The notes under the pieces are model-generated. The model saw nothing but the letters and a program-made list of their open reading frames with translations, searched no databases and was not told where the DNA came from. Positions 1,215 through 30,524 of a stretch of 34,227 nucleotides of DNA are shown one piece after another. The stretch spans positions 1 to 34,227 of the IMG/VR virus record IMGVR_UViG_3300032092_000125. One strand, given 5' to 3'. Both the position numbers and the translations under genes were made by a program. Positions within the stretch are counted from its first letter, which is position 1, and each line of letters starts with the position of its first letter. Source of the DNA: a virus.

Positions 1215-1502
1215 TTAAGCCCAAACCCTCATGGGATGGGAGGGGGGTGGATCAAGAATTGGTAGAGCAGCAAGCTGTTCCGCAGTCAGCTCTCCAGATA
1301 CCCGCAGGTTAGCGTGAAACCGTTCATCGGTAACCAGCTCTTCGTCAACAATGCGAGTCACGGGGCCGATCCAACCGATGTCAATGCGCTGCCCGTCCAG
1401 GATGTGGCACTCACCATCAATGCCGGACACTTCAACGCCGATGGCTGCAAACACTTCGACCATCTGCTCTTCGGTATTGGTGCGTAGGTAGTAGTCGGTC
1501 AT
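1215..1502 (-). CDS. Small protein coupled to the lectin-like tail gene
   Basis: A 95-aa acidic protein containing VTRIVDEELVTDERFHANLR and a Pro-rich C-terminus ending in MRVWA. Its ATG overlaps the stop of the large tail gene by 4 nt (ATGA), so the two are translationally coupled. The C-terminal half resembles uncharacterised small proteins that recur next to tail genes in phages; I do not know a proven function. The position right after an adhesin-like gene allows a fibre chaperone or attachment subunit role, but this is inference from context only. There is no signal peptide or membrane segment. Confidence 0.65.
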   Translation of the reverse strand: MTDYYLRTNTEEQMVEVFAAIGVEVSGIDGECHILDGQRIDIGWIGPVTRIVDEELVTDERFHANLRVSGELTAEQLAALPILDPPPSHPMRVWA

Positions 1503-3247
1503 GTGCTGAGGCTCTGAAGGGTTGCGTTTGGAAGTCTTAATGGGAAATACTTAATCAACTTCAACGAAGTGTTGATGGCAGCTGTTCCCGCTTGGCTGTT
1601 GCCAAGAGCAATCTGATTCAGCCCGGTGGGGAGCGTCACGCCAGTGTCTGTTGCAACCGCTCCACCACTCAAACACCAAGCAGCATCATTGGTTGCATAT
1701 GCCAATGCGACCTTTCCGTTTGCTGTTCCAGCGGTTCCAAATGATGCTTGGAATGACCCGTTATAGATTGCCGATTCAGAGTATCCCACCCAAATCTGAT
1801 TGCTTGCACTCCCATCGTTGATGGTTGCATATCGACCACTCGTGATTCCCGTTCCGCTCCATGTGGTGAGCAGCGTGCCTTGCGTTGCGTTGAACCACGA
1901 AGAGAAGTTCGTACCGCTTATCACGCAACTATCAGCCGCTCGCTGCACGGTGCTTGTGCCAGTAGGGATGTACGAGGATGCGCCAGAGCCTGCTTCCAGT
2001 TGTGCGCCCCAAATTAGTACATCAGCAGCAATAGAAGTGGAGTTGTTGGAAATATAAATCTGTCCAACAAGGCTAGTTCCAGATGTGTTTACCAGCGTAA
2101 ATCGCTGCCATGTCGGAGTAACAGTGGGAGCACTACCAGTTCCATCAGTTCCGAGAATGTTAATTGTGTAGTTTGTTCCAGCAGTGTTGCTCTTCATCCA
2201 TACCGAAACTGTATATGGAGCAGCCGTAGTGGGAAGTGTTGCATACGAAGTCCCCTGAGTTATTCGACTTGCGCTTCCACCATTTACGGGAAATTGAACT
2301 CTCGTTGGCCTAGAAGTATTGTCTGGAGCAAAACCGTTCCCGGTATATCCAGCAGTAACTGTTGGAGGTGTGGTTCCGGCAGTTTGCCATGTCGGAGATG
2401 CGAACGGATTAAGTCCGCTTTGAAGAACATAGTTGACACCGCTTCCCTCAATCAGCAACCCGCGAGGAGTCAGCGTGGTTGGGTCGTAGTCAAAGCGGGG
2501 CGCATGGTAGGTGCTGGCAACTGGACTTTCAAAGTAAGTGGGTTGCGTTTGTGATCCAATCACGCAACGCGGGAGTGTCATACTCACACTTGCGCTTGGA
2601 TACAATGTAGTACCCGAAGCACTGATTCCAATTCGCAGAGTATTCGAACCACCGCTTGTCCACACAATCGTGATGAGGCCAGTTGAAACGGTGGCACCAT
2701 CCGAAACCAACACGCCATCCTTGTACCTCGTGACACTTGAAAATGTACCGGCAATCGTGATCAGTTCTTCGTATGTGATTCCACCGGAAACCGCTGTGAT
2801 ATTGATGGATGCCGAATAGACACGGCCACTAACTGGTGCGTTGTCCTGAAATCCTTGTGCATTTGTTTGGGAGTAATACAACTGCGTTTGCGCAGCACTT
2901 GTTGAAAGCGTCAAAACACCACCAGCATTTGTAGTTGTGCCTGTTCCAGTAGGAGCCCACCCAGTAAGCGAACTGAATGTGCTATTTCGAACCAAATTGT
3001 GATCTGCGTACTGCACCAACCCTTGGCTGTTGATGAAGGTGGCGTTGCTGCTGCGCGAAAAGGTGAAGCGCGAATCCAGGTTTTGAATTTTGGTAAAATC
3101 AAGATCAAGGGTAGCTCCATTAGGAGCCATAACAGAGTTAGCTTGAAGTGAGTTGTTTTTAACAAAAGCTTCGTTTGACTTCAAGCTAAAGTTTGGACCG
3201 TTTGGTGGGTAATAGTTAGAACCAAGATGCTTCTTGTTTTTTGCCAT
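1499..3247 (-). CDS. Large lectin-like tail adhesin
   Basis: A 582-aa Ser/Thr/Gly-rich beta-type protein. Near residues 48-75 it carries the module LDLDF...LDSRFTFSRSSNATF followed by NSQGLVQYADHNLVRNS, and later APRFDYDP...PRGLLIEGSGVNYV. These are hallmarks of a recurring phage tail/structural module linked to carbohydrate-binding (concanavalin-like) domains. The remainder (roughly 85-230 and 270-430) looks like repeated jelly-roll carbohydrate-binding segments. It lies beyond the terminase, outside the usual T7 tail block, after a structured leader. No Shine-Dalgarno is visible before the ATG. Base composition looks more AT-rich than its neighbours by eye, which hints at separate acquisition. 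A host-surface binding role is inferred; no catalytic motif was seen. Confidence 0.75.
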   Translation of the reverse strand: MAKNKKHLGSNYYPPNGPNFSLKSNEAFVKNNSLQANSVMAPNGATLDLDFTKIQNLDSRFTFSRSSNATFINSQGLVQYADHNLVRNSTFSSLTGWAPTGTGTTTNAGGVLTLSTSAAQTQLYYSQTNAQGFQDNAPVSGRVYSASINITAVSGGITYEELITIAGTFSSVTRYKDGVLVSDGATVSTGLITIVWTSGGSNTLRIGISASGTTLYPSASVSMTLPRCVIGSQTQPTYFESPVASTYHAPRFDYDPTTLTPRGLLIEGSGVNYVLQSGLNPFASPTWQTAGTTPPTVTAGYTGNGFAPDNTSRPTRVQFPVNGGSASRITQGTSYATLPTTAAPYTVSVWMKSNTAGTNYTINILGTDGTGSAPTVTPTWQRFTLVNTSGTSLVGQIYISNNSTSIAADVLIWGAQLEAGSGASSYIPTGTSTVQRAADSCVISGTNFSSWFNATQGTLLTTWSGTGITSGRYATINDGSASNQIWVGYSESAIYNGSFQASFGTAGTANGKVALAYATNDAAWCLSGGAVATDTGVTLPTGLNQIALGNSQAGTAAINTSLKLIKYFPLRLPNATLQSLST

Positions 3248-5289: not shown

Positions 5290-5500
5290 GACTCAAGTAC
5301 CTCGTAGCGACGTTGATAAAGATTGACACGGCGGCCCCAACCACTGCGGAGCCGCCCATGAGAAAAGACTTGGAGTTTTCCAGACCACGCACGCGCTCAT
5401 CAAGGGACTTGATTTCCTCTTGCTGAACGTGCTGCATCTGGATGAGAGCGTCCATCTTTCCTTCAAGACGACCCAGGGCAAGAAACAATTCGTCGTTCAT
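5282..5500 (-). CDS. Small coiled-coil protein with C-terminal TM segment
   Basis: A 72-aa protein with an N-terminal heptad-like region (ALGRLEGKMDALIQMQHVQQ, then EEIKSLDERVRGLE) and one C-terminal membrane segment (FLMGGSAVVGAAVSIFINVA), ending RYLSHG. This architecture is common for small phage proteins of the XhlA/DUF1515-like kind. It occupies the T7 holin (gp17.5) slot between fibre and small terminase, so a lysis role (holin, antiholin or holin partner) is reasonable but unproven. It overlaps the upstream collar gene by 4 nt and the downstream terminase gene by 8 nt, so translation is probably coupled. Confidence 0.72.
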   Translation of the reverse strand: MNDELFLALGRLEGKMDALIQMQHVQQEEIKSLDERVRGLENSKSFLMGGSAVVGAAVSIFINVATRYLSHG

Positions 5501-6036
5501 GGGACAGCCGCCACGTTGACGTTGGTCTTGATGATGTAGTTCAGGATCATGGTGGGCTGCATGTTATTGTTGTTGTAAGTAACAACGTTAGTACCAATGT
5601 CGGACGGGACTTCGACCGTGGAGGTAAACGACTGTGAACCCCCGTTTGCGCCAAGGGAAACACCGTTGATTCCACTACCAGCGGTAGTCACTCGGTTAGC
5701 TGCGGTACCACCCATGTTGTCACGGCCAGCCACCGTGCGACCACGGAGGTCCGGTAGGTTAAACGTGGTGGTACCGTCGCCAGCACCGTACTGGTTTCCA
5801 ATCAAGGCGTACAGTTGAGCAAAGGTTGTTCGGTTGACCGCCTGACCATTGCAGAAAGCAAAGCCAGTGGGAGCCGAAGCAGTTGCTGCGGAGTACGGAA
5901 GGATGCAACCAAGGGGGATTGCGCTATAGCCGGTGTTGGAAAATCCAGTGGCAAGCGTACCGGCGAGCTCACTGAGACCGTTGGAGATCCTGAGGAGGTC
6001 TGTGGTCATCAATGGGCTTACAGTATTAAGGGGCAT
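5497..6036 (-). CDS. Short tail-collar domain protein
   Basis: A 179-aa structural protein with a phage tail collar domain (PF07484 type). Visible landmarks are GCILPYSAATASAPTGFAFC at about residues 43-62, NGQAVNRTTFAQLYALIG, then YGAGDGTTTFNLPDLRGRT near 82-100 and AGRDNMGG. The first 35 residues are a helical lead-in that may dock on the main fibre. The C-terminus (NVVTYNNNNMQPTMILNYII) is the usual end of collar-type fibre tips. It directly follows the gp17-like fibre, which carries its own collar domain, so the two may form a branched or exchangeable tip. It overlaps the next gene by 4 nt. Confidence 0.87.
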   Translation of the reverse strand: MPLNTVSPLMTTDLLRISNGLSELAGTLATGFSNTGYSAIPLGCILPYSAATASAPTGFAFCNGQAVNRTTFAQLYALIGNQYGAGDGTTTFNLPDLRGRTVAGRDNMGGTAANRVTTAGSGINGVSLGANGGSQSFTSTVEVPSDIGTNVVTYNNNNMQPTMILNYIIKTNVNVAAVP

Positions 6037-6050
6037 GTTTTAGTCCTTTC

Positions 6051-7361
6051 TTAGGCAGTACGCATGATGTACGCAAGGGCGTAGTAGGGAGGAAGGTTTG
6101 CATTGACTCCGGTCACACCACCAACTGGGTTAGCAACAGAGCCGCTGATGCTGTGGGTGTGGGCTCCGCTGGAGCTGGTTGTGTAAATTGAAGAACCATC
6201 GTCCGGTGTACCGCCACCAAAGCTTCCGTTAGATCCAACAGGTGTAAGAGCGGTGTTATATCCGGTTTGATATGTGTGGGTATGCGCTCCAGCAGACGCT
6301 GCGGAGAGAGATCCTGCATCGTGAGTGTGGTTCACAACGACAGCATCAGGAGTACCACCAGTAGCATCAACGGCGTATGTACTACCAGCACCAACACCAG
6401 CACCAACGATGAACTTGTTACGAAGATCTGGAGTACCAGAAGATCCGTTGCAAAGAGCCCAGTTTGCCGGAATAGAAGCAACGCTTCCACTCCACATGAT
6501 GATTCCACCGATGGGGGTTGCACCAGGAAGAGTGACACCAGCTCCAGCGGTGACCGTACTGTTGAAAGTCACTGGTCCATCAAAAACCACTTCAGCTTCA
6601 AATTCAACACCGTCTTTAAAAATGACTTCGTTGTTGAAAGCTGCGACGTTTCTGGTAATTCCAATGTTGCGAACGCGGATACCTACAGTTGCCGGAGGAG
6701 CAGAAACAAACTGAATGTACGACCCAAACACGTCGTAGTCAGTCACAGGTCGCTGAAGAACCCCACCAACTTCAACGATGAAAAAGTTTGGATCGGTTGA
6801 CAAAGCCACTGGGCTAAAAGAAAAGATTGTTGAAGAGCCGTTACCAGTAAACGACCACGCCTGAGGAGTCCCCAAGAATCCGTCGCCATACAAAGTCACG
6901 CCATCAATGTACTGCTTCGTTACAGCATCTGTAGCGTCGATGGGCAACCCAACATTGGTAATACGCTTACCGTCAGCATCCCAGTCTTGCTCATTAAGCG
7001 TTGGACCAATAGATCCATTGCCGGTATCCTGGGCTTCCTGAGCGATAAACAGAAGTTGAATTGCAGAACGATCCAGGTCATTTGCAGTCAGCACAGAGCC
7101 GTCAGAAAAGTCCACAACACGGGTAGCTTGTGTCTTTGGGGTCTCTCGGCGGACAACAATGATGTCCGTAGCGATAGGGGCCGTACTAAAAGACAAAGTT
7201 AGAACACCGCTGGGCTGTGTAAAAGTGTAGCCACTCGCCTGCAAAACATCATTCTTGTACACCTTCAGATGGCTGAGTTGAAGATAACCATCAATCTGGG
7301 TGACAGCAAACGAGTTGTTGGTAACGGTTGAGCCTGAGTAAACTTGATAAGAGTATGCCAT
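6051..7361 (-). CDS. Tail fibre (gp17-like) with C-terminal collar domain
   Basis: A 436-aa fibre. Residues 1 to about 150 match the T7 gp17 virion-attachment domain: MAYSYQVYSGSTVTNNSFAV, SHLKVYKNDVLQASGYTF, VRRETPKTQATRVVDFSDGS and LTANDLDRSAIQLLFIAQEA. A second beta-rich block (about 165-235, GNGSSTIFSFSPV... and DYDVFGSYIQF) forms the shaft start. The C-terminal part is a collar-type tip, GGIIMWSGSVASIPANWALC then GTPDLRNKFIVGAG near residues 285-320, ending in His-rich turns (NHTHDAG, AHTHTYQ, AHTHSIS) typical of metal-organised trimeric tips. It attaches to the tail tubular proteins and recognises the host surface. T7 gp17 is longer (553 aa) with a different tip. Confidence 0.93.
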   Translation of the reverse strand: MAYSYQVYSGSTVTNNSFAVTQIDGYLQLSHLKVYKNDVLQASGYTFTQPSGVLTLSFSTAPIATDIIVVRRETPKTQATRVVDFSDGSVLTANDLDRSAIQLLFIAQEAQDTGNGSIGPTLNEQDWDADGKRITNVGLPIDATDAVTKQYIDGVTLYGDGFLGTPQAWSFTGNGSSTIFSFSPVALSTDPNFFIVEVGGVLQRPVTDYDVFGSYIQFVSAPPATVGIRVRNIGITRNVAAFNNEVIFKDGVEFEAEVVFDGPVTFNSTVTAGAGVTLPGATPIGGIIMWSGSVASIPANWALCNGSSGTPDLRNKFIVGAGVGAGSTYAVDATGGTPDAVVVNHTHDAGSLSAASAGAHTHTYQTGYNTALTPVGSNGSFGGGTPDDGSSIYTTSSSGAHTHSISGSVANPVGGVTGVNANLPPYYALAYIMRTA

Positions 7362-16564: not shown

Positions 16565-17047
16565 TTATTTGATCCTAATGAATTGATGGAAGAGCTCACC
16601 GTTTTTGCCACGGGGAGCTGTGTTTAGAAACTCAAAACCAAGCCACTTGAGCCAACGGACGTGCACAGTGTTCCTGACATCAACCCAGTTCCATAGAACG
16701 GGGTAGTCAGTGTGCAACTCATCCACACACCCAGGGACGATCCTGGCAGACCTGAGGGCCACCTTGGGAAACCCATCGGTGCCCACCAGCCAGCAGCACC
16801 CAACGAGAAGCTCATTGTCTAGGGTGTGCGGACCAACACCAAAAAGGGCCACGGCTGTATCGTTATCATCAACAACGGCAAACACCTTGTCGCTATAGAT
16901 GCAGGAGCTGGCAAGGGTTGCCTTTGGGTCATACCCAAGGGCCTTTGCCTCCCTAGCATCATCACTCCGCATACCTTCAGAAACGGTGCGGATGTCCTTG
17001 ATTGTGGCCTGTCTTACGACTTTATGCTCGCTGCGACCGTGTGACAT
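16565..17047 (-). CDS. Internal virion protein A (gp13-like), GNAT-like fold
   Basis: I start the 160-aa protein at the ATG at 17047 (MSHGRSEHKVVRQATIKDIR), 26 codons inside the open frame, because the upstream part only mirrors the end of the tail tubular B gene. The text KVVRQATIKDIRTVSEGMRS, AVVDDNDTAVALFGV and WVDVRNTVHVRWLKWLGFEF follows the layout of gp13-type (DUF2833) phage proteins, which resemble GNAT acetyltransferases. In T7 gp13 is needed for proper core assembly although it is barely present in virions. Whether an acetyl-CoA site is intact cannot be judged here. It overlaps the tail tubular B gene by 26 nt. Confidence 0.85.
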   Translation of the reverse strand: MSHGRSEHKVVRQATIKDIRTVSEGMRSDDAREAKALGYDPKATLASSCIYSDKVFAVVDDNDTAVALFGVGPHTLDNELLVGCCWLVGTDGFPKVALRSARIVPGCVDELHTDYPVLWNWVDVRNTVHVRWLKWLGFEFLNTAPRGKNGELFHQFIRIK

Positions 17048-19982
17048 AGCTCGCCTCAATCTCAGCTGACAAGAGATGGAAGGGAAGGTGGTTATCGTTG
17101 ATGATGTCGATACGCATCTCGTCATTCTTGCCGTGGACTGGGAACTTAAACGTACCAGAGTTTATGGGAACCGCAGCAATAACCGATTGGCCAGTCCCAA
17201 GCATTTTGCCGGTATACGGATATAGATATACCGGAGATGCCAGACGGTTTACCACACGAGCTCTGAAGTACGAGGAGTCGCTGTAGACCAAGTACATGTT
17301 CCGCATCTGGTACCGGCCTGAGGCATACACGGAAGTTCCGGTGTTGCTCTGTTGCTTGACGTACTGGGTGCTAAATTCGTATCGACTGCTGTAGACCTCG
17401 CCGACCCAGACCTCAATCGCGCTGACATTGCCTTTGACAACAATGGTGTTTGCCACGGTACCACCGACACTACCAGCGGGGCGGCTACCGTTATCCGAGT
17501 TACTGAACTCGGACGTACCAACGCTGTTAAATGCCTGCACGTTGTAAGTGTAAACCACCCCAGCCAGTGCGGAAATGTCCTCAAAGGCACCTTCGGTGGA
17601 CGTGCCAATTCGTGCGGCGACACCGTTCAAAGTTCGCCAGACGACGTATCCGGTAGCATCCGCAACGGTATTCCAAGTGAGCTCAACGGTAAGCGGGTGG
17701 GTAGCATCATTATCAGATGCCACCAAATTCAATGGACTTGATGGTGGGGTAGGACCGCCACCTCCTCCACCGCCTCCGCCACCGCCGCCTCCACCTCCGC
17801 CGCCAGATCCAGAGCCATCTTCTTCAGGGAACTCGCTTCCGGGGTCACCGATTGAGTTGTCTTCTCCAGTACCTTCTCCGCCATTAGGACCGGAGTTGTC
17901 ACCCTCAACCTCATTACCGAGCAGGTTTGGACTTCCTGGGATGTACACCGTATACAAGTAACCAGCTTCAGTAGTGCTGGTGGCCTGGGCCACAACACGC
18001 ATACGGGAGTAGTTCTCAACGCTGTAGGGGATAGTGATTGTGGTAAGGTTCGTGGAGGAATCGTAAGTCTTGGTGACGGGCTTAAACCGGCGGTCAAGGC
18101 AGGTCACAAATGAACTGTTCTCATCCCGCCGGTTGGGCTCCACAGTAATCTTCTCAAGGTAAAGCCCACCGGTTCGTTGAATGGCAACGTACAAAGTTGA
18201 CTTCATCCAGGTAATGCCACGGATCTCTCCACCGTTAAAGCTCCAGCGGGACCACGAAGACTGAACCCGTTCGTTACCGCTGTTCAGCCACTTGTAGACG
18301 TACAGGTTGAATGGCTCCTGGTCCGTGACACCGATAAGGATGTTGTCGTGGGTAGACCCAACGATTTGACGGAGCTTGCCATTGATGTACTTGGGAACGT
18401 GGGACGAAATATCCGGTGCGGTCAGCGTGGCGTTATCGTTGGGATTCGTGATCATTTCACGGACACCAGAGTAACCACCACGGTCAAACCCAAAGAACAC
18501 ACTCTCGGCAACTACCACTGGACGGCAGTACGACAGGGTGTCATAGTTGCCCACCACGTTAAGCGTAGCAGTCTTGGAGGTCAACGCCGGGGTACCAGAC
18601 AGAACAAACTGGGTCTGGTCAGAGAAGACCACCAACCGCTCAGAAAACGGAACCGCATGGCGGAAGACCGTGATGGCTGGGTAAGACGACCCAACGTCAA
18701 TGGGGTCAGAGTCCAGGAGCGTGGTGACAGTGCTTCGGAAGAAGTTGAAGTAGTTACCAGCTTCGGACAGGACAATGGCTTCCTGGCAAAGGAACCCAAG
18801 GCGACCACGGAACAGGAAGATGTCGTTGATGGTCTTACCGATAAAGCTCGGGTTGGGGTTAGAAGAGGTATCACCAACAGAGCGACTAGTCCACTTGTTG
18901 GCTGTGTTGGCAAAGCTGCTGTACTGGGTACCGTCAAGACGCTTGAACACAAACTCAGTGGACGACACGCGGATAAGCGCGTGAGGCATTGTGTTGTAGT
19001 TGTAATGCTGGACCGTGGACGGACCAATGGTCTCAGACCAAAGACCTTCGCTGATGGTACTCGTGGTGTCCTTGGCAGCGAACTTCACATAGTAATCATC
19101 TTCGGTGGAGTCCGGAAGACCATCCACACGAACGATCATGTTGTTCTTGGCTACCGAAGGAAGGTCACTAAACGACTGCACAGAGTTCTTGATGAGGCCG
19201 ATACCAGATTCACCAAGGCCGCTGTTAACGGTCATGTCGAATGCGGCGGTCTTAGAAATGTAAGTTGTATAGGAGCCTGCACCACGGGTAACAGTCCATC
19301 CACTTCCTGAGCTACCACCATTGGTAACGAAGGCAGCCTTTAGTTCGGCCATGATGGAAATAACATCAGCATGGGAAACATCGTTAAACGACTCGCCATC
19401 AAAAGTTGAGTTGTTGTGCTTAGTTGCTCCGCTCTTCATTTCAGCGGCGACAGTACCTGCAATAGCATACTTAGTGCTATATGCACCCTGCTTGATAAAC
19501 ACCAAAGCCTCATTGACAGCCGCTGCTGTTGCCGTACCAGAGTCCATGCTGACAACCGTATCGGTGTTCAGGATGAACGTGTAGTCAGCCACAGACACAG
19601 CTTTGAACACGGAGTCTGCATTGGTTGACGTGAGGTAGGTCGGAAGACCTCCAGTCAGGTGCACGTTGCTGTGAATGGTCACCGTCATAGTGGTGGTGGT
19701 GCCATCATCATTGATCCGATACACCCCAATACCACCACTGCGGATCACCGCAATGTACCGCTCAGTACCATCCCCACGGTCAATCCCGTGCACCGTGGCC
19801 TTCCCTGCGTCACCATCAATCAACTTTTGAACATGCTCAGTGGGTGGACGCTTGCCAAGGCCCTCAACCGGCGAAGCGTACATGTTCTCCTGAGCTTCGG
19901 CCTGGGTCTGAAACCTCAGAGCAGGGGATTGCTGGGAGATGCCGTTAAGAAGGTTGGCAATGGAAAGGGTAATAAGACTCAT
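17022..19982 (-). CDS. Tail tubular protein B (gp12-like) with Gly17 linker and FN3-like domain
   Basis: A 986-aa nozzle protein. The N-terminus (LLNGISQQSPALRFQTQAEA, then NMYASPVEGLGKRPPTEHV) is diagnostic of T7 gp12-type proteins. The middle contains the conserved LFRGRLGFLCQEAIVLSEAG and TQFVLSGTPALTSKTATLNV blocks. T7 gp12 is 794 aa; the extra length includes an acidic Gly/Ser region at about residues 700-726, an uninterrupted run of 17 glycines (727-743, bases 17754-17804), and an FN3-like domain at about 745-832 (PLNLVASDNDATHPLTVELT, YTYNVQAFNSVGTSEFS). After it the normal gp12-type C-terminal fold resumes. It ends 26 nt inside the gp13-like gene. Confidence 0.95.
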   Translation of the reverse strand: MSLITLSIANLLNGISQQSPALRFQTQAEAQENMYASPVEGLGKRPPTEHVQKLIDGDAGKATVHGIDRGDGTERYIAVIRSGGIGVYRINDDGTTTTMTVTIHSNVHLTGGLPTYLTSTNADSVFKAVSVADYTFILNTDTVVSMDSGTATAAAVNEALVFIKQGAYSTKYAIAGTVAAEMKSGATKHNNSTFDGESFNDVSHADVISIMAELKAAFVTNGGSSGSGWTVTRGAGSYTTYISKTAAFDMTVNSGLGESGIGLIKNSVQSFSDLPSVAKNNMIVRVDGLPDSTEDDYYVKFAAKDTTSTISEGLWSETIGPSTVQHYNYNTMPHALIRVSSTEFVFKRLDGTQYSSFANTANKWTSRSVGDTSSNPNPSFIGKTINDIFLFRGRLGFLCQEAIVLSEAGNYFNFFRSTVTTLLDSDPIDVGSSYPAITVFRHAVPFSERLVVFSDQTQFVLSGTPALTSKTATLNVVGNYDTLSYCRPVVVAESVFFGFDRGGYSGVREMITNPNDNATLTAPDISSHVPKYINGKLRQIVGSTHDNILIGVTDQEPFNLYVYKWLNSGNERVQSSWSRWSFNGGEIRGITWMKSTLYVAIQRTGGLYLEKITVEPNRRDENSSFVTCLDRRFKPVTKTYDSSTNLTTITIPYSVENYSRMRVVAQATSTTEAGYLYTVYIPGSPNLLGNEVEGDNSGPNGGEGTGEDNSIGDPGSEFPEEDGSGSGGGGGGGGGGGGGGGGGPTPPSSPLNLVASDNDATHPLTVELTWNTVADATGYVVWRTLNGVAARIGTSTEGAFEDISALAGVVYTYNVQAFNSVGTSEFSNSDNGSRPAGSVGGTVANTIVVKGNVSAIEVWVGEVYSSRYEFSTQYVKQQSNTGTSVYASGRYQMRNMYLVYSDSSYFRARVVNRLASPVYLYPYTGKMLGTGQSVIAAVPINSGTFKFPVHGKNDEMRIDIINDNHLPFHLLSAEIEASYVTRSQRA

Positions 19983-19985
19983 TGG

Positions 19986-20591
19986 TTATCCAGTGAAGTC
20001 CTCGGGGTAGTTGCGATCAATGATTCGGTACGTTGAGTAGTTGTCAAAGATGGTGCGATCAGCAGTCTCGCCTTCGTACTCACGGAGCTTGGTGAGAGCA
20101 AACACCTCGTCACGCAGGGTAAACCCATGGTGCTTCTCAGAGCCCACCATGCGGTCACCAAAGATGCGTGAAGCGCGGATCATAATGTACCCACGGGCTG
20201 CCTGAGGGATTTCCTCCCAGTCCAGACCGTAGATGACGGTGGCCTTGATGCTTTTTTCAAAGACCGTGGTCTTGTTCTTCTTGTCGTAAAGCTTGTTGCC
20301 ACGAAGAACAACCTCAAAGTCACCACGGTTAATCCCATCGACATCGACCATGAGGGCGTTGGGCGAGACCACAATCTCACCGCTGCTGGGATCTGGGACC
20401 AGCTCAACATCCTCCTCGGTATTCCAGTGCCACCCTTCAGACTGAACCGAAAGGTTAATCTCATCCAGGATCTGAATAGCCAAGGCTGTATCGGCAGAGT
20501 TGTAACCAGACAGAGAACTGATCGGGGAACACCCGATAGTGCTCAGCATGGTGTTGATAGCCTGAAGCTTGGTGGTTGGAGTAAGAGCCAT
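19986..20591 (-). CDS. Tail tubular protein A (gp11-like)
   Basis: A 201-aa head-to-tail adaptor. It shows the family's pattern throughout: LQAINTMLSTIGCSPISSL near the N-terminus, ALAIQILDEINLSVQSEGW, WNTEEDVELVPD, and ARGYIMIRASRIFGDRMVGS followed by an acidic helical C-terminus. T7 gp11 is 196 aa. Twelve copies are expected between the portal and the gp12 nozzle. It lies 3 nt upstream of the gp12-like gene and 15 nt downstream of the SGNH-hydrolase gene; in T7 it directly follows the capsid and T-phi, so the hydrolase gene is an insertion in otherwise conserved order. Confidence 0.96.
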   Translation of the reverse strand: MALTPTTKLQAINTMLSTIGCSPISSLSGYNSADTALAIQILDEINLSVQSEGWHWNTEEDVELVPDPSSGEIVVSPNALMVDVDGINRGDFEVVLRGNKLYDKKNKTTVFEKSIKATVIYGLDWEEIPQAARGYIMIRASRIFGDRMVGSEKHHGFTLRDEVFALTKLREYEGETADRTIFDNYSTYRIIDRNYPEDFTG

Positions 20592-20606: not shown

Positions 20607-21968
20607 TTACTTATTGAGAGCAGCCACGATCAGTGCACCGACAGCCGCATAGCCAGTCAACGAGAGATGTGAGTTGCCACCGGAATCGTAAAAGCTGTTG
20701 GTATTCAGGTAGGTGTAAGGTGCCATCTCATTCATGTCAATGAACGTCACCTGGTTGCTAGCACCGAACGAAACGCTGGTCTTACCGAGAACTCGGCCTG
20801 CTGCAAGAGTGGTATCAGCCGCAGCCTGGGTGTGGGTAACAGCCACAACGAATGCAAGGTCCGAAGAGGGGTAACCAAGGGCAGTCCACTTGGTCTGGAA
20901 ATGGCTAATCATGGCGTTAGTCTTGGTTGCCCAAGCAGACAAGTTGGCTGCACCAACGTCATTGACACCGGTGTAGGTAAACACTAGGACTCGGCCAGAG
21001 CCGCCCTGAAGGATCTGACGCTCACGAAGCTCTCGCAGGTAAGTCGTAGTGGTGTCGCCAGAAGCAACTATTCCATCGCTGATCTGAGTCGTGGTACCAC
21101 CGGAGTAGACACCCATGCCAGTAACAGCAAAACCCTTGACATTGCGAGAGACGGATTCAAACAGGAATCCAACCGGCCCGATTACACTACCCTCACCGTA
21201 GAAGGCATCTGTCTTGGTAAAGCGAATAGCCTTACCGGAACGACCGGCGTTTGCAGCAATGGTGTGGCTAGCAATGCTGTAGCCAGACGTTCCGGTGTTG
21301 GTGTTGTAAGACGTGCCGCTAATCCAAGCACCGTCAGTATTGTTAAATGATCCAGCCTTAAAGCTGCCAGAACCGGTGGTGAAAGTCGCGTATCCAACCC
21401 GGTAGGTCAGTGCATTAGTGACACCAATCGACGAAGTTGCACCAAGCTCAGTATATTGACTTGCTTGGAAAGTTGTTCCGCTGGCAATATAGGCCCAATC
21501 AAGCACGGGACCGGCTGGCTTAAAGCCACTGCTGCCGCCGTTCCAGGCGTTGTTAATCGCAGTTAGGGAAGTCTGAGCTGAGCCAAGAGACACCGAAGCA
21601 GATCCACCCTGTGCCGTTCCAATCAGTGCCTGGTTTGCGTCAATGGCAAGAGCCGAATACTTACCAGCGGGCTGGTTGACGGTTGCCGTTGCGCCACCGC
21701 AAGGGAAAATTCCGGTTGCATAAGCAGCAGCACCAGCATCAAGGAGGCCCTTCTCCCAAGCATAGAGCATACCGCCATTAGAGCTGTACGCTCCGTTGCT
21801 GTCAGAAATCACCACCACGTCCAGAGAGTCCTTACCAGCGATCACGTCCTTCACAAACTGGTCAGCCATGGTTGAACCATATGCTCCAGCCTGCTGCTGG
21901 TTAAGGGTGCTGGTGACATACCCACGGGGGTAACGCTCGTTGTTGCTGGGATCAAAAACTGCTGGCAT
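20607..21968 (-). CDS. SGNH/GDSL-type hydrolase-like virion gene
   Basis: A 453-aa protein with SGNH-hydrolase signposts: block I as SLDVVVISDSNGAYSS with candidate nucleophile S57, block III as TYTGVNDVG (the Asn position) near residue 330, and block V as FYDSGGNSHLSLTGY with candidates D428 and H434. Between blocks I and III lies a large Ser/Thr/Gly-rich beta domain (about 130-290), an arrangement seen in phage esterases that deacetylate surface polysaccharide. The first block is SDS, not GDS, so activity is not assured. Placement between capsid and tail adaptor suggests a late, probably virion-associated protein. The alternative is a decoration protein with a decayed hydrolase fold. Confidence 0.8.
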   Translation of the reverse strand: MPAVFDPSNNERYPRGYVTSTLNQQQAGAYGSTMADQFVKDVIAGKDSLDVVVISDSNGAYSSNGGMLYAWEKGLLDAGAAAYATGIFPCGGATATVNQPAGKYSALAIDANQALIGTAQGGSASVSLGSAQTSLTAINNAWNGGSSGFKPAGPVLDWAYIASGTTFQASQYTELGATSSIGVTNALTYRVGYATFTTGSGSFKAGSFNNTDGAWISGTSYNTNTGTSGYSIASHTIAANAGRSGKAIRFTKTDAFYGEGSVIGPVGFLFESVSRNVKGFAVTGMGVYSGGTTTQISDGIVASGDTTTTYLRELRERQILQGGSGRVLVFTYTGVNDVGAANLSAWATKTNAMISHFQTKWTALGYPSSDLAFVVAVTHTQAAADTTLAAGRVLGKTSVSFGASNQVTFIDMNEMAPYTYLNTNSFYDSGGNSHLSLTGYAAVGALIVAALNK

Positions 21969-22003
21969 GTTGTTCCTTGTTGTTTAGGGTTGAGTGAGGA
22001 ATA

Positions 22004-22032
22004 GGCCAAGAGCCCTTTCGGTACTCTTGGCC
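22004..22032. terminator. T-phi-like hairpin after the capsid gene
   Basis: GGCCAAGAG (22004-22012) and CTCTTGGCC (22024-22032) form a perfect 9-bp stem around an 11-nt loop, 20 nt downstream of the major capsid stop. It sits exactly where T7 has its late terminator T-phi after gene 10. The minus-strand tail is only TATTCC, so termination of late transcription is probably partial, as for T-phi. The plus-strand tail (ATTTGTATTTT) is more U-rich, so it could also stop antisense transcription. Confidence 0.75.
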
Positions 22033-22052: not shown

Positions 22053-23033
22053 TCAGGCCGTAGCCAGAACCACCGACGACTCGGGACGCAGGATGCCCGA
22101 ACCCATGGCATACTTGGCCACCATCAGGTTACCCTGAAGGCGGATGTTGTACTCGCTCTCCATAGCCAGATCCATCAGCTTCACCGTACCGATAGCACTC
22201 TTGTGGAACGCCACACACTGGACGTTCGTGAAGTTGCCGTGGTAAGCATTGTTCTGGCTGGAGGTGCTGACGTTGGTCTTCAGAACGCTGGCAGCGTTGT
22301 TGCTCTTCACCAGAGCAAAACCAGCCACCTTCAGAAGCTTACCCTCGTAGTACGTTCCGTTGCTGTCGCCGCCGAAGTCACGGTCGATCAGGGCCAGACC
22401 CTGGGTGCTGTTCACGATGGTCCAGTAGTCATCGGGGGTGACCACGGCAAAGCGATCTTCGCTCGGGACGTTGTTCTTGTCCAGAGCAGCAGCCGCCTTG
22501 TACAGACCATCCACGATACCCGCACCGGTGTAAGCAGCGTTTACAGCAACGCTGTTCTTAGTCGGCATACCGGTGGTGGCTGAAGCCTGACCAGCCAGAA
22601 TCGCCAGACCAAGCAGGTTCTTATCGAACTGGTTGGCCAGAGCGCGACCGATTTCCTGGGCGTAGATCGAACGCACATCGTAGTGGTTCTTCATCTCGTC
22701 CAGCTTATCCACGAACACGCTCGACAGGAGAAGCTGATCAATGTAAATGACCTTCTCGTTGTGCTTGATGTTCTGGAGGTAGCTACCTTCCACGGCAATA
22801 TCCTGGCCGGGAGTGTGGTAAGCCACGCCAGCCACACCAGCGCAGGGGAACGAAGCCGACTTGCCGCTGGAAATCGTGCGGATCATCTGCTTGTCCTTCA
22901 TCACGGTGGTCGTTTCAAACGACTGAAGGACTTCGCCACCGAACACCTGGAGGAAAAGCTCATTGTTCTTTGCAAAAGTGCCGGTAGTGTCGTTGTTAAC
23001 ACGACCACCGAAAGTAATACTAGTAACTGCCAT
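22053..23033 (-). CDS. Major capsid protein (gp10-like)
   Basis: A 326-aa HK97-fold shell protein, close to T7 gp10A (345 aa). Landmarks are NNELFLQVFGGEVLQSFETT at about 23-42, KDKQMIRTISSGKSASFPC, EKVIYIDQLLLSSVFVDKLD near 93-112, and RSIYAQEIGRALANQFDKN, with a C-terminal NIRLQGNLMVAKYAMGSGIL. A strong ribosome site (AAAGGAG) lies 5 nt before the ATG, fitting the most abundant late product. It is preceded by a hairpin-rich leader and followed by the T-phi-like hairpin. There is no slippery sequence or downstream extension at the stop codon, so a gp10B-type frameshift product is unlikely. Confidence 0.97.
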   Translation of the reverse strand: MAVTSITFGGRVNNDTTGTFAKNNELFLQVFGGEVLQSFETTTVMKDKQMIRTISSGKSASFPCAGVAGVAYHTPGQDIAVEGSYLQNIKHNEKVIYIDQLLLSSVFVDKLDEMKNHYDVRSIYAQEIGRALANQFDKNLLGLAILAGQASATTGMPTKNSVAVNAAYTGAGIVDGLYKAAAALDKNNVPSEDRFAVVTPDDYWTIVNSTQGLALIDRDFGGDSNGTYYEGKLLKVAGFALVKSNNAASVLKTNVSTSSQNNAYHGNFTNVQCVAFHKSAIGTVKLMDLAMESEYNIRLQGNLMVAKYAMGSGILRPESSVVLATA

Positions 23034-28221: not shown

Positions 28222-28439
28222 TCTTCAACCCCCCCAGCGGTTAGCAGCATACGGGCACACTCAACAAGCCCGATGCAGGAGTGGAACTGTCCAACAGAAC
28301 AGAACGTCATGTCCTGTGCTGACTTGGTTTTTGGTTGACAGCCGATGAACAACAGGGCATCAAAGCGTGCGCCAAGGATTGCAAGCAACTCGTCTGTGGT
28401 GTATCGGTTCAACGGATGAAGCGGATCATGCGGTTCCAT
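28218..28439 (-). CDS. Small protein of unknown function
   Basis: A 73-aa protein, MEPHDPLHPLNRYTTDELLA, then a more hydrophobic middle (GARFDALLFIGCQ) and three cysteines overall. I recognise no domain. It is supported by overlap architecture: it starts 14 nt inside the homing endonuclease gene and its stop overlaps the exonuclease start by 4 nt. TTDELLAILGARFDALLFIG resembles the short phage proteins built around a helix and one conserved strand often found in replication clusters. The function is open. Confidence 0.6.
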   Translation of the reverse strand: MEPHDPLHPLNRYTTDELLAILGARFDALLFIGCQPKTKSAQDMTFCSVGQFHSCIGLVECARMLLTAGGVED

Positions 28440-28797
28440 AGTCTACCTTCTTTGCTTTCTTGAGATTCTTCAGCAGGCTTTCTCGCGCCGCTGAACCATG
28501 GGGAAACTTGTGGGCAGTGAGAATAATATCTGCTTGATAGGCTTTCTCCCTGAGCCAAGGTCTGATTTTCTTTACAAACTTCCTGGCATTAGGGCCACAC
28601 ACTTCCCACCGATATGCGTTGCGCCTGGGTGCCTCGTTCTTTAACATCCTGATCTTCCCAAAACCGAACAGCTTTTGGATATCCTTCAGATGGTATGGCC
28701 AGCATGAGGTGATGTGTACACGGGCGGTAGATGTCCACACGAGACAGCCCTCGCCATCGAACAGCCCAGCAATGTAGGCCAGCTCGGTCTTCTTCAT
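28426..28797 (-). CDS. LAGLIDADG-type homing endonuclease
   Basis: A 123-aa protein from the ATG at 28797 (MKKTEL). AYIAGLFDGEGCLVW at residues 7-21 is a clear LAGLIDADG motif with the catalytic acid D14. Only one motif is present, so it should act as a homodimer. The rest has the family's features: HITSCWPYHLKDIQKLFGFG (an LFGVG-like DNA-binding loop), NAYRWEVCGPNARKFVKKIR and a basic C-terminus. The ATG overlaps the DNA polymerase stop by one base (TAATG). No intron or intein is seen in the polymerase, so it is free-standing, and probably spreads by cutting phage genomes that lack it. Confidence 0.88.
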   Translation of the reverse strand: MKKTELAYIAGLFDGEGCLVWTSTARVHITSCWPYHLKDIQKLFGFGKIRMLKNEAPRRNAYRWEVCGPNARKFVKKIRPWLREKAYQADIILTAHKFPHGSAARESLLKNLKKAKKVDYGTA

Positions 28798-30524
28798 TAG
28801 TGTGTCTCTGCCCAGTTGTTGCCCATGCGTGCCTCGCCTGCAAGTGGGCAACGGAAGTTGAAGAACTCACCGGCCTTGGTGATGGCCTGCTTGGAACTGT
28901 CGATCAGCCAGTCAGCTTCGCTGGGGTCTACGCTGAACTGGATCTCGTCGTGGATGTGGGCAACCTGCTTGGCACTGGAGCCCATGCGTGCAATCTCACG
29001 GTTGATCCCAACGGTTGCACGCTTCATCACCAGCGCACCGGCGGATTGAAGCAGTGTGTTGAGAGCAGCGTGCTCTGACCGAATGTTCAGCCGCCTGCCG
29101 TCAAGCCCTACCAGGTAACCACGGGACTTGGCCGCAGACTCTACTGCTGACTTCAGGGCAGCCAGTGCAGGAACCTTCTCAAGAAACTGCTTCTGCATCC
29201 GCTTGCCTTCCTTGGCACCGCCGCCGATGAGGGACCCAAGCTTGACCGGGCCAGCACCGTAGAGGAATGCGTAGATGAATCCCTTGGCTGCATTGCGAGT
29301 GGGCAGACCAGCTGCCTTCTGGTTAGCCGTGTGGATGTCACCCTGCAACAGCTCCTTCGCATAGTCGCCGTTGTCCCACTTGGCCATGTAATGGGCAAGG
29401 CAGCGAAGCTCAAGACCTGAGGCATCACAGCCAACAAGGACGTGGCCTGGGTCTGAGGTGAAGAGCTCCCTGCACTCCTTGCCATAGGGAGAACCGCAGG
29501 ATGGGACCTGGGCCATGTTAGGACCACGGTGTGTACACCTGCCGGTGACAGCCCCGTTGTGGTTGACGCTTCCGTAGATGCGGCCACTGCGCTCCACCTT
29601 GATCCAAGCCTCATCACCCTCAGCCAACATACCGATACGCTTCTGAAGCAGCAGGTACTGGCTCAGCTTCTTGGCAATGGGATACTCAAGAGAAGACAGG
29701 ACAGACTCATCCACCTTGGCCTCACCGGATGGGGTGAAATCTTCAGGCTCCCATCCGTGCATGGTCTTGAGAGCAGCCGCGATCTGCTGCCTGCTGGCTG
29801 GGTTGAATGGGATCTCCTTAACCTTCGTCTTCATCTGAATGATGGTGGGGGGAACGATGGTGACCAGCTCCTGGTTGATAGCCTCGCGTTCAGACGAGAG
29901 CTTTGCATACAGGGCGTTGGCCTTATCCTTATCAAAGGCAAAGCCATTGCGGACCTGCTGTGCAATGCACTCGGCAAACTCGTGTTCAAGGATCAGGGCC
30001 TCCTCCGCGCACTTCGGCATCAGGTGCTGGTAAAGCTCACGAGTAACCACAATGTCCTGCTTGCAATACTCGGCAAGTTGTGGGGTGAACTGAAGGTTCT
30101 TCCAGTCGGTGACTTCGCTACCGAAGTCATTCTTTAGATGACCAAGGCGGTGGCCCCAAGCCTTCAGCGAATGGCTGCCAATGAACTCCTTCGGAAACCC
30201 GCTGGTCTGCCAGTCACTGTCCTTGATGTCGGGGCTGGTAAGGCGAGCCATCACAAGGGTGTCACGAACGCAGCCGCTTGGTCCTGCCCACTTTGGGAAC
30301 AGCTTCTTCAACACAGGGATATCAAAGGCAATGATGTTGTGGCCGATGATCTCGTCTGCATTCTGCAACTCAACTAGCGCAGCTTCGATTGCATCCTTGT
30401 CATCACCATTGACAACAAACTCCTTGTTGCCGTACCCAGTATTGTAGCCAATACCAAGGCAGACAATCCTGCTGACACTATCCAGCAAGCCGTCACACTC
30501 AATGTCAAAATAAACTCGGTGCAT
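28797..30524 (-). CDS. DNA polymerase, family A (gp5-like)
   Basis: A 575-aa replicative polymerase with proofreading. I start at 30524 (MHRVYFDIECDGLLD) because that Met aligns with the Exo I motif position of T7-type polymerases; 38 codons further upstream look non-coding. The exonuclease has YFDIECDGLL, IIGHNIIAFDIPVLKK and YCKQDIVVTRELY. The polymerase has motif A GCDASGLELRCLAHYM, motif B RNAAKGFIYAFLYGAG with the conserved Lys and Tyr, and motif C HIHDEIQF. The end, MGNNWAETH, resembles T7 gp5 (704 aa). It is about 130 residues shorter than T7 gp5, which fits loss of the thioredoxin-binding insertion. Ribosome site GAGAG lies 6 nt upstream. Confidence 0.96.
   Translation of the reverse strand: MHRVYFDIECDGLLDSVSRIVCLGIGYNTGYGNKEFVVNGDDKDAIEAALVELQNADEIIGHNIIAFDIPVLKKLFPKWAGPSGCVRDTLVMARLTSPDIKDSDWQTSGFPKEFIGSHSLKAWGHRLGHLKNDFGSEVTDWKNLQFTPQLAEYCKQDIVVTRELYQHLMPKCAEEALILEHEFAECIAQQVRNGFAFDKDKANALYAKLSSEREAINQELVTIVPPTIIQMKTKVKEIPFNPASRQQIAAALKTMHGWEPEDFTPSGEAKVDESVLSSLEYPIAKKLSQYLLLQKRIGMLAEGDEAWIKVERSGRIYGSVNHNGAVTGRCTHRGPNMAQVPSCGSPYGKECRELFTSDPGHVLVGCDASGLELRCLAHYMAKWDNGDYAKELLQGDIHTANQKAAGLPTRNAAKGFIYAFLYGAGPVKLGSLIGGGAKEGKRMQKQFLEKVPALAALKSAVESAAKSRGYLVGLDGRRLNIRSEHAALNTLLQSAGALVMKRATVGINREIARMGSSAKQVAHIHDEIQFSVDPSEADWLIDSSKQAITKAGEFFNFRCPLAGEARMGNNWAETH

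Follow-up and report, generated by a model that had tools for sequence, protein, structure and literature searches.

A Stand-Alone SGNH Hydrolase Gene With a Predicted Ape1-Like Domain Plan Lies Between the Capsid and Tail Tubular Protein A Genes of a T7-Like Phage

The SGNH Gene Lies in a Slot That Is Usually Empty

The DNA analyzed here (referred to as the window) is a T7-like phage genome, present as a virus record of 34,227 bases with the main genes on the minus strand. These genes, which were named partly by eye, include an RNA polymerase fragment, replication genes, and genes for portal, scaffold, capsid, tail tubular proteins A and B, internal proteins, fibre, and terminase. A gene for an SGNH-type hydrolase is located between the capsid gene and the gene of tail tubular protein A, and the locus comprises the following features:

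20607 to 21968, minus strand: SGNH hydrolase gene, 453 aa, ATG start, relatives occupying the same slot
22053 to 23033, minus strand: major capsid protein gene (Gp10A-like), upstream of the SGNH gene, Pfam PF21703 at 4e-63
19986 to 20591, minus strand: tail tubular protein A gene, downstream of the SGNH gene, assigned by homology to annotated tail tubular A genes
22004 to 22032, minus strand: strong RNA hairpin between the capsid and SGNH genes, z -4.89

The 453-aa ORF had been predicted before at 20607-21968 and is indeed present there, but on the minus strand, which had been left unsaid; the plus-strand reading of the same region is interrupted by stops. Directly 5' of the ATG an AAGGA-type ribosome site can be seen by eye. 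Judged by sequence comparison, the ORF is not a chance ORF, because relatives in the same slot show 88, 52, 46, and 46% identity and the comparison with contig L002 yields a dN of 0.067 and a dS of 0.61. This excess of dS over dN (dN/dS of about 0.11) also indicates that the protein is under purifying selection. Searches of Pfam and NCBIfam with the SGNH protein (P0001) had no match, and neither did a search of 50,697 annotated phage records at E 10, run with the low-complexity filter and on a collection from which the closest records to the window may be missing. Profiles A1 and A2, built for the SGNH protein, had no match in the genome-contig collection. Neither a signal peptide, as far as can be seen by eye, nor a recognized virion-anchoring domain was found in the protein.

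The occupancy of the slot was surveyed in the nearest IMG/VR relatives of the window, selected by capsid (80 kept of 596) and by tail tubular protein A (80 kept of 85), to which four annotated phages were added. This yielded 150 loci with capsid and tail tubular A in order, corresponding to 127 distinct junctions with the window's own counted, whereby SGNH carriers are over-sampled since the loci are nearest relatives by precisely these two proteins. In 118 of the 127 distinct junctions only 61-167 nt separate the two genes, which agrees with the original prediction that this position is normally empty. The nine longer junctions carry HNH-type ORFs, named by eye (two junctions, 306 and 447 nt), three paralogous proteins of about 120 aa (one, 1159 nt), the SGNH gene (five including the window; 1432, 1445, 1465, 1465, and 1476 nt), or an Mtd_N protein (Pfam PF18454) together with small ORFs (one, 3011 nt). 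Thus, the slot is usually empty and serves as a cargo site in a minority of phages. Furthermore, in L087, a contig without capsid sequence, an Mtd_N protein is encoded directly before tail tubular A. Since a few relatives hold Mtd_N proteins or small ORFs there, T7-like phages may use the slot for display or for cargo. In the titles and abstract beginnings that were searched, no SGNH gene between capsid and tail tubular A is described.

Two of the other slot contents deserve a short description. The Mtd_N-type proteins have long repeats (L087:96-1751, L013:7428-9488, and L089:3353-5413; PF18454 was scanned for L087 and L013) and occur in relatives without the SGNH gene, either in the slot or directly before tail tubular A. 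In L039 (1732-2838), the slot is filled by three tandem paralogues of 118-124 aa, which resemble decoration proteins by size and position only.

T-phi had been suggested as the one element usually found at this position. A hairpin is present there (22004-22032), at what we take to be the position of the T7 T-phi terminator, and hairpins were predicted 3' of the capsid gene in all eight loci folded, the window among them. The consensus scan, however, did not list the hairpin as terminator-like, and therefore the T-phi label is a positional analogy. The SGNH gene stands between this post-capsid hairpin and tail tubular A. In T7, 10B is a read-through or frameshift fusion of the capsid protein. 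Such a fusion was rejected for the window, where the open SGNH frame (stop to stop, 20610-21983) begins at 21983 and extends no more than 15 nt 5' of the ATG. In L008 and L009 the frame continues without a stop as far as the capsid end or into it, and there the SGNH protein may still be fused to the capsid protein.

Conservation of the SGNH Residues

An alignment of 17 rows with identities down to 25% was used to assess the SGNH blocks; it contains several near-duplicate rows, so that the following counts overstate the number of independent observations:

21798 to 21800, minus strand: codon of S57, block I nucleophile (D-S-N), 17/17 rows, in the loop after strand 49-55
21099 to 21101, minus strand: codon of G290, block II, 16/16 rows covering
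20961 to 20963, minus strand: codon of N336, block III (G-x-N), 16/16 rows covering
20667 to 20669, minus strand: codon of H434, block V, 15/15 rows covering
20832 to 20834, minus strand: codon of H379, [ST]H motif after a core strand, 16/16 rows covering
20685 to 20687, minus strand: codon of D428, candidate acid six residues before H434, D in 8/15 rows

The blocks SDSNG (S57), GVND (G334-D337), and D428/H434 are all found where the original prediction had placed them. It had also named a lack of S57 conservation in homologues as evidence against an esterase; the whole D56-S57-N58 stretch is invariant (17/17 rows), and the catalytic residues are kept down to 25-30% identity. An Asp three residues before the His is usual in SGNH enzymes, although it is not among the four residues that give the family its name. 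Here, the residue at -3 from H434 is G431, and the candidate acid D428 lies at -6, at an alignment position where the 15 rows with a letter have D (8), Q (6), or G (1). For many members of CE2, a Ser-His dyad is assumed (PMC9487903). At the position of the block I glycine, the window has S, L002 and L004 have A, and the other 14 rows have G. H379, which is located outside of the canonical SGNH blocks, is invariant as well and may, from its conservation, take part in catalysis or substrate binding.

The exchanged glycine and the displaced acid could mean that the protein decorates the capsid or binds glycans, having retained the SGNH fold without catalysis, and its gene adjoining the capsid gene is suggestive in this respect. 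S57, G290, N336, and H434 are invariant in every row covering them, however, and the protein appears to be under purifying selection relative to L002, which makes a non-catalytic role quite improbable.

The SGNH Gene Body Is Exchanged Between Near-Identical Phages

Comparison of the window with the contigs L004 and L085 revealed that scaffold, capsid, tail tubular A and B, gp13, gp14, and gp15 are 94-98% identical at the amino acid level (for the parts present), whereas the SGNH proteins share 52% identity. The dS amounts to 2.7 for the SGNH gene, which is saturated, compared to 0.18 for capsid and 0.07 for tail tubular A. Because of this difference, the SGNH gene in L004 is, on the evidence of the sequences, a replacement by a diverged allele relative to the window. 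The edges of the exchange were read from the DNA identity between the window and L004 in blocks of 60 columns. Identity is 78-100% in the capsid gene, where the last value is 78%, and reaches 98% in the spacer block that starts at 22023 and 97% from 21963 to 21904 (about codons 2-22); it falls to 37-68% over the remaining SGNH gene and is back at 87-100% from the end of the gene across tail tubular A. The spared part of the gene is:

21903 to 21968, minus strand: N-terminal leader, codons 1-22, 97% DNA identity to L004 (60 columns from 21963), residues 1-24 with pLDDT < 50 in the predicted model

Within the first 30 residues, 26 are identical between the window and L004, and 25 between the window and L002, even though the L002 protein is 88% identical overall. 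The grouping of the genomes depends on the gene: capsid, tail tubular B, and scaffold place the window with L004 and the SGNH protein places it with L002 (88%), while tail tubular A gives a tie (97 and 96%). Such a pattern, in which a short N-terminus stays fixed while the body is swapped, is that of receptor-binding proteins. As far as sequences tell, the SGNH gene resembles such genes in its allele swapping, with abrupt edges that spare about 22 codons, and the leader might serve as the virion anchor of the protein. It could also be that the conserved leader is merely the homology used for recombination, in line with the observation that L002, despite its 88% identical SGNH protein, is no better kept there (25/30).

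The Predicted Structure Matches Ape1

The SGNH protein was modeled with AlphaFold2 on the 17-row alignment (mean pLDDT 71, pTM 0.82; pLDDT < 50 at residues 1-24 and in much of 91-158). In the predicted order of secondary structure elements, S57, G290, and N336 follow core strands and H434 precedes the last helix (437-452). When the model was compared to known structures with VIA-align, three Ape1 entries came first with Z 21.2-21.6 over 317-331 aligned residues, namely 8gkd (Z 21.6, 326 residues, rmsd 4.3), 4k3u (Z 21.6, 317 residues, rmsd 3.8), and 8gld (Z 21.2, 331 residues, rmsd 4.4). The next SGNH enzyme scored far lower (Z 11.1, 176 residues), with several carbohydrate acetylesterases in the rows below it. 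Ranks 1-34 (Z 9.3-21.6) are, by their titles and from recall, presumably all SGNH-type enzymes. Foldseek also found 4k3u (E 6e-10), yet with TM-scores of just 0.48/0.59 and an rmsd of 6.7, and it scores non-SGNH chains (GlfT2) too, at E 4e-5. At the sequence level, a search of the PDB chains with profiles A1 and A2 had no match at E<=10.

Between blocks I and II the model has an additional region:

21138 to 21716, minus strand: beta-rich insert, residues about 85-277 (own delimitation), seen in the predicted structure at the position of the CBM35-like insert in Ape1

In Ape1, the catalytic domain spans residues 45-99 and 227-393, and a beta-sandwich proposed to be CBM35-like occupies residues 104-221 (PMC6174289); the insertion of CBMs has been described as characteristic of Ape1 (PMC9487903). 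The model thus suggests that the SGNH protein shares the Ape1 domain plan, with a sugar-binding-like sandwich inserted after block I, and the two align structurally over nearly the whole length. The beta-rich insert that had been expected from the sequence is borne out as a predicted structure, and the reading as an SGNH esterase gains support from residue conservation and the predicted fold. On this model, the enzyme probably clips acetyl groups off bacterial surface sugars. Unlike Ape1, the protein comes from a phage context, has no visible signal peptide, and carries the Asp at -6 instead of -3 from the His; the lack of a PDB match at the sequence level also sets it apart. In the viral model library, the nearest models are the uncharacterized UniProt entries A0A6J5M2C8 (40% identity) and A0A6J5RY71 (20%) from uncultured Caudovirales phages, followed by a Gordonia phage hydrolase, with tail fibres of Rhodococcus phage ReqiPoco6 and Klebsiella phage Sin4 among the later matches. 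Three of the top nine models have a functional name, one being a hydrolase and two being tail fibres.

Since the best predicted structural match is to Ape1 over the whole length including the insert, the protein might be a peptidoglycan O-acetylesterase, which would remove 6-O-acetyl groups from MurNAc so that a muralytic enzyme of the virion or of lysis can cut the O-acetylated wall. O-acetylation is known to block lysozymes and lytic transglycosylases (PMC6174289). However, a phage tailspike that was modeled on Ape1 works on capsule (PMC8471582), and allele swapping would suit variable surface glycans better than conserved peptidoglycan. Moreover, the internal virion proteins (887 and 1925 aa) have no Pfam match at E<=0.1 in this incomplete genome, and a signal peptide is not visible by eye. 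Overall, we regard a peptidoglycan substrate as rather improbable. Pairing of the esterase with a gp16-type transglycosylase was considered and dropped, as no such domain is found in the two internal proteins; it is kept as part of this alternative only.

SGNH Relatives Occur in Different Contexts, Often With a Small Partner Gene

Relatives were collected by two profile scans of IMG/VR with 21 contigs each, 22 in union, one of which (L001) encodes an SGNH protein identical to that of the window. In seven of the 22 contigs the SGNH gene adjoins a relative of the window capsid gene (67-100% identity). Six of these seven reach both neighbours and have the SGNH gene between capsid and tail tubular A, while L006 is cut off. 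In the other contexts, for which several gene names were given by eye, the gene of L174/L187, from a distant podovirus, is located before those for scaffold, capsid, and tail tubular proteins, and in L173/L186 it lies a few genes before a major head protein (phrog_1005, E 1.6e-5), a context that near-identical sister contigs probably share. It stands between a holin-like ORF and terminase genes in L170/L183, and among nuclease-type genes in L175-178 and L188. The SGNH proteins of L174, L166, and L175 had no match in the annotated phage collection. The capsid neighbourhood had been called unusual for such an enzyme; this applies to the T7-like phage type, but among the remote relatives L174/L187 and L173/L186 also have it beside head genes of other phages (L170, L175-178, and L188 do not). 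Three remote members have a CBM_5_12 match (best 1.2e-4), which, judged from sequence, fits sugar binding; these are the near-identical L175, L177, and L178.

This range of contexts (head genes, holin-like ORF and terminase, nuclease-type genes) is what would be expected of a mobile accessory gene, whose product is not virion-borne but acts in the infected cell or after lysis, e.g., on glycans of debris, thereby freeing progeny. The relatives beside nuclease-type genes suggest that members of the family need not be structural genes in every case. The GC3 of the SGNH gene is also lower (0.535) than that of the capsid, tail tubular A and B, portal, and terminase genes (0.60-0.72). On the other hand, the fibre gene, which encodes a virion protein, has a still lower GC3 of 0.435, and among the seven close-relative contigs six have the SGNH gene between capsid and tail tubular A, as for a late structural protein. 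Thus, we consider an accessory gene of this kind somewhat unlikely for the window.

Directly upstream of the SGNH gene, 13 of the 22 contigs have an ORF of one partner family (168-195 aa). These contigs represent six lineages, since near-copies are included (the five contigs L168, L169, and L171-173, and the four contigs L175-178). The partner ORFs of the lineages are:

L167, 543 to 1109: partner ORF
L175, 4347 to 4928: partner ORF
L186, 531 to 1070: partner ORF
L187, 1078 to 1626: partner ORF
L188, 5453 to 5956: partner ORF
L193, 5393 to 5932: partner ORF

With each lineage left out in turn, the profile of the remaining ones still recovered the partner from 10,935 ORFs, with E-values no higher than 6.5e-11. 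In L167, two further ORFs downstream of the SGNH gene match the partner profile weakly (4.8e-4 and 3.9e-3), and at no better than 0.098 and 0.031, respectively, when L167 is left out of the profile. The window has no partner match at E<=1. The partner profile gave no convincing PDB, Pfam, or PHROG match, the L187 partner had no match in the annotated phage collection, and the model of the partner fold (A3) is of low confidence (mean pLDDT 42). L166/L181 differs in that the SGNH protein has a phrog_5707-type domain fused to its N-terminus, with a paralogue encoded upstream; in L181 both the upstream protein and the fused domain match phrog_5707, a family of unknown function, and the upstream protein had no match in the annotated phage collection.

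As the enzyme and a small partner recur beside head genes of unrelated phages, it might be that phages repeatedly mount deacetylases on the head. The window protein would then be a receptor-destroying glycan esterase displayed on the capsid rather than on the tail, with a lectin-like sandwich inside the SGNH domain as in the hemagglutinin-esterase plan and with alleles swapped like those of receptor-binding proteins. Such a deacetylase would bind to and walk through acetylated slime, or escape from debris. We regard this more specific proposal as unlikely.

A Proposed Carbohydrate O-Acetylesterase Possibly Carried on the Virion

SGNH esterases of phages have been described as parts of receptor-binding proteins. 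Aristophanes gp41, an Autographiviridae tailspike modeled on Ape1 4K7J, takes O-acetyl off the K26 capsule of Acinetobacter (PMC8471582), two SGNH receptor-binding proteins of Klebsiella prophages are active esterases (PMC13123978), and Klebsiella prophage tailspikes that are structurally similar to Ape1 are known (PMC12115436). LPS deacetylases in tailspikes were reported earlier, as was an SGNH domain in phi11 Gp44 (PMC5380687). The window protein shares with gp41 the phage SGNH region of Ape1 type, while capsule deacetylation is the property of gp41. Whereas gp41 is a tailspike of 993 aa that has a particle-binding part at the N-terminus and whose gene closes the structural module, the window protein is a stand-alone protein of 453 aa with its gene between those of the capsid and the tail adaptor. 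G7C gp63.1 and the Klebsiella prophage proteins are likewise virion esterases that act, or are predicted to act, on surface polysaccharide, but they are tail fibres or tailspikes, and the sections of PMC13123978 concerned with them place none beside capsid genes. SGNH deacetylases are thus already known in phages; what is new about the window protein is that it stands alone, is encoded in this slot, is subject to allele exchange, and has relatives with a recurrent partner.

The SGNH protein of the window is neither fused to a particle-binding N-terminal domain, as a tailspike would be, nor encoded with the fibre. The fibre gene is separate (6051-7361), has a T7-fibre N-domain match and a collar match below the cut-off, and shows no enzyme domain in Pfam. 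Since the SGNH gene is located among head and tail genes, presumably expressed late with them, and no signal peptide is visible, the protein is most likely on the virion. Because the Ape1-modeled tailspike deacetylates capsule, surface polysaccharide is a likelier substrate than peptidoglycan. Based on the architecture of tailspike deacetylases and on the allele swapping, we prefer, as the original prediction had proposed for one of its two readings, a virion-borne esterase, here specified as a stand-alone carbohydrate O-acetylesterase of the Ape1 plan that acts on host surface polysaccharide, a proposal whose chances we judge to be about even. The protein would ride on the virion, perhaps held by its short conserved leader, and on host contact the insert would bind acetylated surface polysaccharide. 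S57 and H434 would then remove acetyl esters, which could help adsorption or allow the particle to move on, and differing host glycans might drive the exchange of the whole gene body among near-identical phages. As phage deacetylases have so far been known as parts of tail fibres and tailspikes, such a function would imply that phages can also recognize host glycans from sites other than the tail. The SGNH protein would also be a small and easily tested enzyme.

Some further genes of the window are worth mentioning. The protein encoded at 5497-6036, beside the fibre gene, has a tail collar domain match as well. Tail tubular protein B (17022-19982) contains a long glycine run, seen in the L001 translation, followed by a segment near the C-terminus that looks like fibronectin III type. 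Downstream of terminase, 1499-3247 encodes a 582-aa protein without Pfam match that looks like a carbohydrate-binding tail protein of phages. Finally, a LAGLIDADG-like ORF (28426-28851, PF14528) overlaps the end of the DNA polymerase ORF and possibly encodes a homing endonuclease.
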